Assembly (NCBI GenBank): GCA_018715825.1
Contig: DVKU01000112.1
Coordinates: 1 to 13,397 of the forward strand
DNA from: Candidatus Avacholeplasma faecigallinarum
GTDB lineage: Bacteria; Bacillota_I; Bacilli_A; Acholeplasmatales; Anaeroplasmataceae
Length of the DNA stretch: 13,397 nucleotides
Direction of reading: 5' to 3'
Both the position numbers and the translations under genes were made by a program. This document shows, piece after piece, positions 1-2,137 of this stretch. The notes under the pieces are model-generated. The model did not search any database, was not told the origin of the DNA, and saw only the letters and a program-made list of their open reading frames with translations. Position 1 is the first letter of the stretch. Each line of letters begins with the position of its first letter.

Positions 1-500
1 TACTCTAATTGCTCTTCAGTCTCTTCATGATCCTCTTCATATTCAGTTTCACAGGTAAAACGATACTCCTTATCCTCATAGATAACAATACCATAATAAT
101 TTGTTTCTATTTCTAACTCGTCTTCTTCAGACTCTGTTTCAACCCTTTTATTTTTAACATACATAGTATAATTTTCATCTAAGAAGGTTACTACATGCTT
201 ATAAATATAACCATCCCTATCAGATTCTAATGTCTCTACTTTTATTTCATCAGATAAATAGGCCTGTGATTGTTGTAATAAAGTAATACTAGGATCAACA
301 GAATTTTCAGTTGTGTTACTCATAGTCTTTACAGTAGAGCCTTTAAAGACACTTGTAGCCTCTATTGATGTAATAGCTCCTACAGCTAGTGTTTGCATCT
401 TACTGTCTGTAACTTGTTCACTTTCATTTACATTTCTACTACAGCCAAAACTTAAAAAACTAACAAAACATATAACTAAAACTACTAATATTTTTTTCAT
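1..500 (-). CDS. Probable lipoprotein, target of the adjacent ECF sigma factor (3' end outside window)
   Basis: The frame is open from the ATG at 500 to the left edge, 166 codons with no stop, so the C-terminus is missing. The ATG has a clear Shine-Dalgarno (AAAGGTGGT). The N-terminus is Lys-Lys, a hydrophobic stretch (residues 4-19) and LSFGC with Cys20, which reads as a lipoprotein signal peptide; Phe before Gly makes the lipobox non-canonical. The mature part has a Ser/Thr-rich stretch (about 45-72) and then alternating acidic and aromatic residues (about 85-166) suggesting beta strands. Its layout and composition resemble the exported part of the upstream membrane protein (569-1522); this is by eye and not an alignment. 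I do not recognise the family. The gene has its own promoter copy matching that of the sigma gene. Inference: a surface protein made when the sigma factor is active. Confidence 0.75.
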   Translation of the reverse strand, partial: MKKILVVLVICFVSFLSFGCSRNVNESEQVTDSKMQTLAVGAITSIEATSVFKGSTVKTMSNTTENSVDPSITLLQQSQAYLSDEIKVETLESDRDGYIYKHVVTFLDENYTMYVKNKRVETESEEDELEIETNYYGIVIYEDKEYRFTCETEYEEDHEETEEQLE

Positions 501-521
501 TGTATTTACCACCTTTCACCA

Positions 522-560
522 ATAATACAATTAAGGAGTATTACTTTATTGGATTTTTTT
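522..560 (-). promoter_or_regulatory. Putative ECF-type promoter of the lipoprotein gene
   Basis: Read on the minus strand, AAAAAAATCCAATAAA (545-560) is followed after exactly 15 bp by TGTATTAT (522-529), with the ATG 21 bp further on. The same block, spacing and -10-like sequence occur upstream of the sigma gene at 2054-2092. The hexamer at the -35 position for a 17-bp spacer is AATAAA, a poor match to the housekeeping TTGACA, so recognition by the encoded ECF sigma factor is the likeliest reading. A site for a shared activator remains possible. Confidence 0.6.
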
Positions 561-568
561 TATTTTTT

Positions 569-1522
569 TTAATTTAATATATAAAAATGTTTCCCATCAA
601 CAATCGTCATAATCATTTCTAAAGAAATGTTACGTTCTTTCTCTTCAACATATGATATCAAATAAGAATTATCAATTTTCTTAGTTTCTATTTGTAAAAC
701 TGTTTTACTATTTTCATATTCATAATCACATATAAGCTCATCATCTTCATATTCAATTTCTATTTCATATGTTTCAATTTTTTTATTATTTTCATAAATT
801 GAATATTCAATAGAAAATTCTTCCTTTTCAAAATCTCTTTCAATTTCTATAACCTGATTACCTCTTGTAAAGCTCATTTCAACTTCAGCCTCATCATTTT
901 CTATAGAGGCTTCTATAAAGCCAAGATAATATTGATCGTTTAAAAAATACAAAGCTTTAATTCTTTTATCGGTATTCATTATATCATCTTGTAAATATAT
1001 ACCAAATTCAGCAACTTGCATATAATAGCTATATTGATTATTTTCATAAATAAAATCACAGGATTCATAACAAGAATAAAGCCCATTTTTATTATTAAAC
1101 ATAGTTTGTATGATAGGATAAATCTCCTCATATTTTGCTTGAGCTCTATTAAAATCTTCTGTAGTTACTTTAGCAATACCTAACTTAGTAGAAGTTGATT
1201 TATTAGTGGCATCAAACATTGATCCACCATAAAATAATTGAAAAGACATAGCTGAAAGAAGTGATGTATCATTTAATTTAGAACTAGTGTTTTCTACATA
1301 AACACTATTATTATTTCCATTGTTATTTTCTTTGTTTATAAATAGTGTTGGAATAATTATAAGTACTGCTATTATAGCTATTAATGAAAATGAAATCGCA
1401 TAGCGATACTTTAAATACCAAGCTGGTTTATTATTTTTATTTAATTGATTTAAGATATCACTTGATGAAGTTTTAATATCGTAGCTATAAGCTTCTTGTT
1501 TAATTTTATCTTCAATCTTCAT
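569..1522 (-). CDS. Single-pass membrane protein, probable anti-sigma factor of the ECF sigma factor
   Basis: A 317-aa protein with a short cytoplasmic N-terminus (about 1-40), one transmembrane helix (about 41-62) and a large exported domain starting with an Asn-rich linker (66-73). The exported part has a hydrophobic and Ser/Thr-rich region (about 85-115), a helical stretch, a Cys-x3-Cys pair (151, 155) and then many short acidic beta-like strands to the C-terminus. The gene overlaps the end of the sigma gene by 11 nt and has a strong Shine-Dalgarno (GGAGG), so the two are translated together. Position right after an ECF sigma gene and the topology are typical of membrane anti-sigma factors, but there is no zinc anti-sigma motif (His-x3-Cys-x2-Cys) in the cytoplasmic part and I recognise no named family. 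The role as anti-sigma is inference; it could also be a co-regulated sensor or effector. Confidence 0.8.
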   Translation of the reverse strand: MKIEDKIKQEAYSYDIKTSSSDILNQLNKNNKPAWYLKYRYAISFSLIAIIAVLIIIPTLFINKENNNGNNNSVYVENTSSKLNDTSLLSAMSFQLFYGGSMFDATNKSTSTKLGIAKVTTEDFNRAQAKYEEIYPIIQTMFNNKNGLYSCYESCDFIYENNQYSYYMQVAEFGIYLQDDIMNTDKRIKALYFLNDQYYLGFIEASIENDEAEVEMSFTRGNQVIEIERDFEKEEFSIEYSIYENNKKIETYEIEIEYEDDELICDYEYENSKTVLQIETKKIDNSYLISYVEEKERNISLEMIMTIVDGKHFYILN

Positions 1523-2033
1523 TTTGTAATTCCCTCCTCACCTTAGCCATCGCATTATTATATGCCCAGGTAATACTACCTAATGGCCTTTTAGTAATTT
1601 TAGCAATCTCCTTGTGGGTTAATCCATTAATAACATGCAATACAACTATTTGAAACTCCTGGGGCTTTAAAATTTGGCTGATTTTTTCTAATAATTCAAA
1701 GTTATCTTGTTCCTTTGTGTCATTATCACAAACATTATCAAACTCCATAACCGTTTCCCTGCTTCTTTTTTTCAAAAGATTAAGACTCAAATTTTTACTG
1801 ATTTTTAACAAATAACCTATAATAGATTTTTCTAAGTGAATTCTATTAATATGCTTTAAAAATTTTAAATAGGTCTCTTGTAAAATGTCCTCACATAAAT
1901 CGCTATTTTTTAAAATTGAATAAGCCATATAAAAAACACTTTGTTTGGTCAAATTATAAAATTCATCAAAATAATTTAATTCATTATTTTTTAAATGCCT
2001 AAAAAGCTCCTTTATGCGCTCTTCATCTTGCAT
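1512..2033 (-). CDS. ECF-type RNA polymerase sigma factor
   Basis: A 173-aa protein of normal length for an extracytoplasmic-function sigma factor with only regions 2 and 4. Region 2 (about residues 23-90) contains CEDILQETYLKFLK, the conserved core- and -10-binding helix pattern. Region 4 (about 112-168) has the helix-turn-helix LTHKEIAKITKRPLGSITWA that reads the -35 element. There is no region 3 and no long C-terminal extension. The protein would direct RNA polymerase to a small regulon after an envelope signal frees it from an inhibitor, probably the overlapping downstream membrane protein. Its own upstream region carries the same promoter-like pattern as the lipoprotein gene, which points to autoregulation. 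The ATG follows GTTGGTG, a modest ribosome binding site, only about 14 nt after the predicted transcription start. Family assignment is firm; the ECF subgroup is not determined. Confidence 0.93.
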   Translation of the reverse strand: MQDEERIKELFRHLKNNELNYFDEFYNLTKQSVFYMAYSILKNSDLCEDILQETYLKFLKHINRIHLEKSIIGYLLKISKNLSLNLLKKRSRETVMEFDNVCDNDTKEQDNFELLEKISQILKPQEFQIVVLHVINGLTHKEIAKITKRPLGSITWAYNNAMAKVRRELQNED

Positions 2034-2053
2034 ACTACACCAACTTCCATAAT

Positions 2054-2092
2054 ATTATACAAATTTACAACCGTGTTTTATTGGATTTTTTT
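2054..2092 (-). promoter_or_regulatory. Putative autoregulated ECF promoter of the sigma gene
   Basis: On the minus strand AAAAAAATCCAATAAA (2077-2092), 15 bp, then TGTATAAT (2054-2061), with the ATG 20 bp downstream. It is the twin of the element at 522-560: the 16-base block is identical, the spacing is identical and the -10-like octamer differs at one position. The 15 bp between the elements do not match between the two copies, which argues for conserved binding sites and not a simple recent duplication. The TATAAT inside it could also serve the housekeeping sigma factor weakly. Confidence 0.65.
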
Positions 2093-2099
2093 AAAATTT

Positions 2100-2137
2100 A
2101 AAAAATACTAGTGCCAAATAATACAGCACTAGTATTT
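2100..2137 (-). terminator. Intrinsic terminator of the yaaA-recF-gyrB-gyrA operon
   Basis: Perfect 12-bp inverted repeat, AAATACTAGTGC (2103-2114) and GCACTAGTATTT (2126-2137), with an 11-nt loop. On the minus strand the 3' arm runs into a six-T tract (2105-2100). It starts 4 bp after the gyrA stop codon and ends just before the sigma-gene promoter block, so it isolates the sigma operon from gyrase transcription. Confidence 0.88.

Follow-up and report, generated by a model that had tools for sequence, protein, structure and literature searches.

Paired promoter elements of a proposed autoregulated ECF sigma factor module in Candidatus Avacholeplasma faecigallinarum and related bacteria

Organization of the locus

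The DNA analyzed here, referred to as the window, is a stretch of 13,397 nucleotides from Candidatus Avacholeplasma faecigallinarum. It represents the entire contig C92 of an incomplete draft genome (1,278,510 bases, 216 contigs, 79% complete). As read from the sequence, the operon module at one end of the window consists of an ECF sigma factor gene, a gene for a putative one-pass anti-sigma factor, and a gene for a lipoprotein with the outer domain of that anti-sigma factor (Table 1). The putative anti-sigma gene and the sigma gene share 11 bases. The hairpin and T-run behind gyrA form a probable intrinsic terminator that would part gyrA from the sigma operon.

Table 1. Features of the sigma factor locus in the window
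Feature	Position	Strand	Remarks
gyrA end	2142	-	upstream neighbour of the sigma operon
Hairpin and T-run after gyrA	2103..2137	-	14-bp stem; -16.4 kcal/mol for a 57-base stretch
Sigma gene promoter (predicted)	2054..2092	-	-35 CCAATAAA at 2084-2077, 14-base spacer, -10 TTGTATAAT at 2062-2054
ECF sigma factor gene, 173 aa	1512..2033	-	sigma2 and sigma4 domains; N85; recognition helix PLGSITWAYNNAMAKVRREL
Putative anti-sigma gene, 317 aa	569..1522	-	from gene order and hydropathy
Lipoprotein gene promoter (predicted)	522..560	-	-35 CCAATAAA at 552-545, 14-base spacer, -10 TTGTATTAT at 530-522
Lipoprotein gene	3..500	-	signal peptide ends SFGC; gene cut by the contig end

The domain composition of the sigma factor was examined with Pfam and NCBIfam models. 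Sigma70_r2 (E 2e-9, residues 28-92), Sigma70_r4_2 (E 8e-7, residues 115-154) and the sigma70-ECF model TIGR02937 all matched above cut-off. The protein has sigma2 and sigma4 domains only, as in ECF (group IV) sigma factors, and the nearest sequences of solved structure were SigW, SigK and SigH. A second relative of the sigma factor was not found in the draft genome (E up to 0.01).

The product of the second gene comprises about 42 residues, one membrane helix and then an acidic outer domain, as judged by hydropathy. It matched no Pfam or NCBIfam family above cut-off, including known anti-sigma families, and the best hit among solved structures (E 0.034) was not usable. The N-terminal pattern was weakly conserved in 14 aligned relatives. 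From its position and topology, the protein is regarded as a putative anti-sigma factor. Profiles of its outer domain and of the lipoprotein, built from 14 and 7 hand-chosen sequences, were compared and gave a probability of 98.8% (E 1e-16), by which the lipoprotein is homologous to the outer domain of the putative anti-sigma factor. A composition artefact was rejected as the source of this match; controls with reversed profiles reached a probability of only 2.8% and 3.4%. A gene for a site-2 protease (M50, PF02163) is present in the same genome (G000:C20:5905-7491, E 2.3e-60), and such a gene was found in all 60 genomes that were searched.

Twin elements in the window and the genome

On the minus strand, the sequence AAAAAAATCCAATAAA-N15-TGTATAAT precedes the sigma gene (2092-2054) and AAAAAAATCCAATAAA-N15-TGTATTAT precedes the lipoprotein gene (560-522). 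The end of the -10 block is followed by 20 bases up to the ATG at 2033 in the first case, and by 21 bases up to the ATG at 500 in the second. A preliminary description of this DNA had reported two matching blocks 15 bp apart at 20-21 bp from an ATG, with unlike interiors; sequence, places and distances were all reproduced exactly, and the two 15-base interiors do differ.

Genome-wide occurrence of the pattern, a check set beforehand, was determined by an exact search and by a search with up to two mismatches. The pattern is not frequent: TCCAATAAA-N15-TGTATWAT has 2 exact copies in the whole 1.28-Mb draft genome, both at this locus, and tolerance of mismatches added 1 site with one and 2 sites with two mismatches. 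The core pattern had 0 matches in 200 dinucleotide-preserving shuffles of the window (chance expectation 0.00). The one-mismatch site, on contig C216, was taken as a chance match; by eye, a TATAAT-like block lies just downstream of it. The A-tract before TCCAATAAA was also considered as a part of the element and dismissed, its conservation being weak (in 115 sites, these columns are A/T-rich but none exceeds 0.40 bit).

Conservation of the elements in relatives

A protein search of 60 genomes, including that of the window, detected a relative of the sigma factor in 35 (E up to 1e-8). A scan of public genomes yielded 354 loci, and the best 80 of the 354 were analyzed. By record title, these come from Acholeplasmatales or Acholeplasmataceae, Izemoplasmatales, Anaeroplasmataceae, other Bacilli and some Clostridia. 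A tryptophan in the recognition helix was part of the scan pattern, hence its presence in all 80 loci. Occurrence of the string CCAATAA was recorded from -260 to +60 of the sigma match and from 700 to 1800 bases past the end of the sigma gene, an interval that commonly includes the beginning of the third gene.

The string was found upstream of the sigma gene in 53 of the 80 loci (antisense string 4, reversed string 2) and in the downstream interval in 51 (antisense 8, reversed 11). Both places were occupied in 40 loci, the upstream place only in 13, the downstream place only in 11, and neither in 16. Among the counted hits, L121, L128 and L137 upstream and L077 and L108 downstream look chance-like by eye. 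The 27 loci without the exact upstream string include 14 that carry a one-mismatch form together with a fitting -10 block at 13 or 14 bases (by eye), and five of these forms are CCAACAAA. The other 13 have no one-mismatch form either; one of them has just 30 bases of upstream sequence. A comparison of related sigma genes had been proposed in the preliminary description, and it bore the proposal out, the element being conserved ahead of the sigma gene as well as close to where the third gene begins. Two outgroup sigma genes (L063 and L064, family f5) belong to the same operon type and have another recognition helix, STSGVTFKLNVAL; the CCAATAAA element is absent just before them.

These data bear on whether the twin copies go back to a recent local duplication or to chance. 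Two copies with identical outer blocks inside 1.6 kb would suit a duplication, but interiors and flanks differ, the chance expectation is 0.00, and 40 of 80 related loci also carry the pair, with spacers that are not the same. We therefore regard this origin as negligible.

Spacing in most relatives is one base shorter than in the window, CCAATAAA-N13-TYGT instead of N14. In the picked promoters, the distance from CCAATAAA to the -10 block was 13 bases in 59 of 66, 14 in five and 15 in two, under a picking rule that favoured 13 bases. A profile of 115 sites with the 13-base spacer reads CCAATAAA-N13-TYGTWT; since sites had been selected by their -35 and GT, only its other positions count as evidence. 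Among these is a T-G step where -1/+1 would be expected, with T at 81% and G at 85% of the 115 sites. From the position of this pyrimidine-purine step in relatives, transcription of the sigma gene in the window would start at about 2048-2049. The predicted start for the lipoprotein gene is the G at 517.

Comparison with ECF promoters

The -35 in the window, CCAATAAA, is without AAC, and the -10 has TGT, not CGT. A CGT in the -10 was found in several relatives, mostly together with D at residue 85 of the sigma factor. In 5 of the 80 relatives the -35 is CCAACAAA, with AAT replacing AAC, and because of these forms CCAATAAA is best read as a lineage variant of the ECF -35, not foreign to ECF sigma factors. 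It had been suggested beforehand that a -35 without AAC may mark an undescribed ECF specificity; the absence of AAC stood, whereas a -35 foreign to ECF sigma factors did not, given the five CCAACAAA forms. Early hallmarks of ECF systems were a co-transcribed anti-sigma factor, autoregulation, AAC and CGT, and the defining features were later narrowed to the sigma2/sigma4 make-up, as stated in one review (PMC8103513). In the best-supported reading, the first two hallmarks would fit the present locus, and AAC and CGT differ by single bases.

Relation between sigma factors and their promoters

Agreement between the two promoters of one locus was compared with that of shuffled partners (40 pairs, 2000 shuffles). 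The -10 blocks agreed at 0.77 within loci vs 0.54 for shuffled partners (0/2000 shuffles). Agreement was also above that of shuffled partners in the spacer (0.381 vs 0.333, 11/2000), in the two bases after the -35 (0.525 vs 0.444, 98/2000) and in the ten bases after the -10 (0.537 vs 0.439, 0/2000). As spacer and post -10 flanks exceed the shuffles too, shared descent is a part of the within-locus agreement.

The forms of the -10 also bear on the possibility that both blocks belong to the ordinary promoters of the housekeeping sigma factor (sigma-A) and are alike by accident. The -10 blocks in the window contain TATAAT and TATTAT and would also suit the housekeeping sigma factor. However, no TTGACA-like -35 is seen by eye at 17 bases, and relatives have the -10 forms TTGTTTAAA, TCGTCTTTA and ACGCTATTA, which are far from TATAAT and agree within a locus. 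Core promoters of A. laidlawii are given as TTGACA/TAWAAT in a promoter-mapping study (PMC5138195). Recognition by the housekeeping sigma factor thus appears very improbable, and the elements are treated below as promoters of the ECF sigma factor.

Columns of the sigma alignment were scanned for association with promoter bases. Residue 85 was the top column for the first base of the -10 (z 23.9, next column 8.3), in a scan that used some wrong promoter picks, at least L089, L101 and L112, where the farther match was taken. A promoter was called for 66 of 81 sigma genes; the base before GT was T in 47 of 49 genes with N85, C in 13 of 16 with D85, and C in the single gene with S85, these counts having been made under another picking rule and with doubtful calls for L093 and L090. 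Second promoters, called in 46 of 81, gave T with N in 26 of 31, C with D in 10 of 14, and G with S in one. Co-variation of region 4.2 with the -35 variants gave no prominent column, the best one (residue 134, z 6.7) being outside the recognition helix.

Residue 85 aligns with N92 of Mycobacterium tuberculosis sigma-H, according to the numbering of residues named in the respective paper. In the crystal structure, N92 hydrogen-bonds the -11 base pair (PMC6411747). This contact is near but not identical, because the -11 pair corresponds to the G of GT and the correlated base is its upstream neighbour.

To account for descent, changes were placed on a tree built without column 85, which gave 7 for the residue and 5 for the base. 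Four independent supported pairs were obtained; 3 changed in the same way, 0 in the opposite way and 1 was neutral (p 0.25). For second promoters, about 2 changed in the same way, 0.1 in the opposite way, and 1.9 were neutral. The correlation between residue 85 and the promoter base in these alignments is strong, yet not significant after correction for descent. Within this limit it would link the sigma protein to the promoter.

Sites across genomes and the regulon in relatives

Sites were counted in genomes with and without the sigma factor, leaving aside 7 of the 60 genomes (G031, G042, G047, G049, G051, G057 and G059) with an intermediate sigma score or belonging to outgroup family f5. The 25 genomes carrying the sigma factor contained 65 sites (reversed control 11) vs 20 in the 28 genomes without it (control 15; p 3e-6); operon sites make up 29 of the 65, which renders these counts partly circular, since the motif was discovered on operon sites. 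Of the 36 extra sites, 17 are intergenic and located 40-268 bases ahead of 16 lipoprotein genes, one of which has two; 13 fall within coding sequence, 1 precedes another gene, and 5 are intergenic with no start found. In genomes without the sigma factor, 0 of 20 sites precede a lipoprotein gene (vs 17 of 36, Fisher p 1.4e-4, with sites of one genome not being independent). A pyrimidine-purine step at the expected start was present in 18 of 18 extra-target sites (TG 12, TA 4, CG 2).

A domain scan covered ten of the 16 target proteins, several of them incomplete, as cut by the fetched stretch. Seven contain a pectate lyase domain, one of these also a CBM77, and 3 have InlB-type repeats. In the genome of the window, the exact pattern search gave only the two operon sites, so the lipoprotein targets belong to sister genomes and paralogues. 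Two large pectate-lyase proteins are encoded in this genome (G000:C47:8323-8859 and G000:C91:5952-6503). They were considered as targets and rejected, the exact motif being absent from contigs C47 and C91; the pectin link is for this reason one of the sister paralogues.

Palindromes of the GAAAACGTTTTC type, which we take to be cre-like, were noticed by eye before the ATG in 10 of the 16 target-promoter stretches inspected. They lie between the -10 and the ATG at L176, L178, L179, L180 (two), L182 (two), L183, L192 and L197. Their presence suggests a joint catabolite control of the surface lipoproteins.

It was also considered that CCAATAAA is the operator of another regulator and not a -35. 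The -35 role was assigned from sequence, and the cre-like palindromes seen by eye close to some targets hint at further regulators at these places. On the other hand, CCAATAAA has a fixed distance to GT and to a pyrimidine-purine step at the expected ECF start, the number of sites follows the sigma gene, and the residue/base correlation lies within the sigma factor. An operator function is accordingly rated as highly unlikely, and CCAATAAA is retained as the probable -35.

Further sites were recorded as single observations. G054, which is a single contig, has three CCAATAAA sites (C1:411705-411731 +, 413338-413364 + and 1112185-1112211 -). In this genome, one extra site precedes what we presume to be a gene for a GlsB-like membrane protein and a flotillin-like gene. 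At L187 (G017:C174:9394 and 9479), two tandem CCAATAAA promoters, 85 bases apart, are placed before one lipoprotein gene. A near copy of the G054 sigma promoter, followed by a 12-codon frame, was found in G052 (L194, L229; G052:C33:7221-7247), where no sigma relative was detected at E up to 1e-8; it is possibly the remnant of a lost operon.

Proposed mechanism

The two elements are very probably promoters of the ECF sigma factor encoded next to them, which would provide positive autoregulation and a second output promoter. The preliminary description had already proposed an autoregulated ECF sigma factor with paired promoters, a view now supported by the rarity of the pattern, its conservation in relatives and the residue/base correlation. 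The features that the following mechanism builds on were obtained by sequence comparison: the element, its conservation, spacing and twin layout, the residue/base correlation, the target class in relatives and the site-2 protease gene.

The sigma factor would be set free from the putative membrane anti-sigma factor encoded next door, probably by proteolysis of the latter with an RseP-like site-2 protease. With the freed sigma factor, RNA polymerase would then use the upstream promoter for the sigma and anti-sigma genes and the second, internal promoter for the lipoprotein gene. Transcription from both would result in positive autoregulation and in extra lipoprotein relative to anti-sigma factor. 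Region 4.2 presumably recognizes CCAATAAA as the -35, and region 2 the -10 TTGTAT, where N85 would favour T and D85 would favour C before GT. Most likely, the lipoprotein exerts feedback on how a surface or extracellular signal is sensed; as a copy of the outer domain of the sensor, it could compete for the ligand or present it.

A wider reading is put forward tentatively and may be somewhat less likely to hold than to fail. According to it, CCAATAAA-N13/14-TYGT would define a class of ECF specificity not yet described, through which Acholeplasma-type bacteria and their relatives control a regulon of surface lipoproteins, and a single residue would serve as a natural code (N85 for TGT, D85 for CGT). 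A lipoprotein copy of the anti-sigma factor's outer domain, over-produced from the second promoter, would compete for the signal or present it and thereby set the gain of the switch. Paralogous modules in sister genomes would control pectate lyases together with catabolite repression.

Comparison with known systems

ECF sigma factors with a cognate membrane anti-sigma factor include SigW of Bacillus subtilis and sigma-E of Escherichia coli. The present module resembles these systems in the two-domain sigma factor, the adjacent one-pass membrane protein, the probable autoregulation, a similar -35/-10 geometry and the GT in the -10; SigW is also the nearest solved structure by sequence. In contrast to them, the -35 in the window does not contain AAC, the -10 begins with T, and in the membrane protein, which matches no known anti-sigma family, about 42 residues precede the helix. 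In the rpoE-rseA-rseB operon of E. coli, the sigma factor gene is followed by genes for a membrane anti-sigma factor and for an exported third protein able to modulate the anti-sigma factor. The gene order in the window is the same, with a putative anti-sigma factor in second place and, in third, an exported protein that may act on it. Unlike in E. coli, no RseA or RseB family was among the matches listed for the proteins of the window, and the third one is a lipoprotein with a promoter of its own.

Similarities to SigI/RsgI of Clostridium thermocellum were also observed. Third-gene lipoproteins of the Acholeplasmataceae type carry an RsgI_M domain (PF23750, E 9e-25 in L138), the gene-2 protein of the clostridial locus L115 has a weak RsgI_M match (23.7 bits, below the cut-off of 25.3), and the targets in sister genomes are surface proteins that degrade polysaccharides. 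The window sigma factor, by contrast, is of the ECF type by domains and models; no SigI model was among the matches listed for it (25 of 79 NCBIfam matches), and neither gene 2 nor the lipoprotein of the window matched RsgI_M. Stand-alone RsgI_M lipoproteins above cut-off, encoded third in an ECF operon and not beside SigI, are L138:6193-7233 and L115:6389-7771, and by eye the DINPSVEL or DINPSIEL stretch of these two is also present in L134 and L088. Self-cleavage has been reported for the periplasmic domain of RsgI (PMC12203970). This domain presumably corresponds to the RsgI_M of the third proteins; RsgI_M in the third protein together with self-cleavage of RsgI suggests a possible role of the third protein in sensing.

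Implications

That an ECF sigma factor has its own promoters is known already. The literature searched, main ECF classification work aside, contained no description of the -35 specificity, of the twin layout across related families or of the residue/base correlation, and a motif for this ECF group may be catalogued elsewhere. Regulation by alternative sigma factors is poorly described on the Acholeplasma side of the Mollicutes. In the promoter-mapping study on A. laidlawii, putative alternative sigma factors of Mollicutes are called primarily species-specific, and stress control by them is offered there as a hypothesis only (PMC5138195). With the present analysis, a motif, a target set and a one-residue prediction are concrete and testable on existing start-site data, and the N/D correlation represents a natural experiment on the ECF promoter code.
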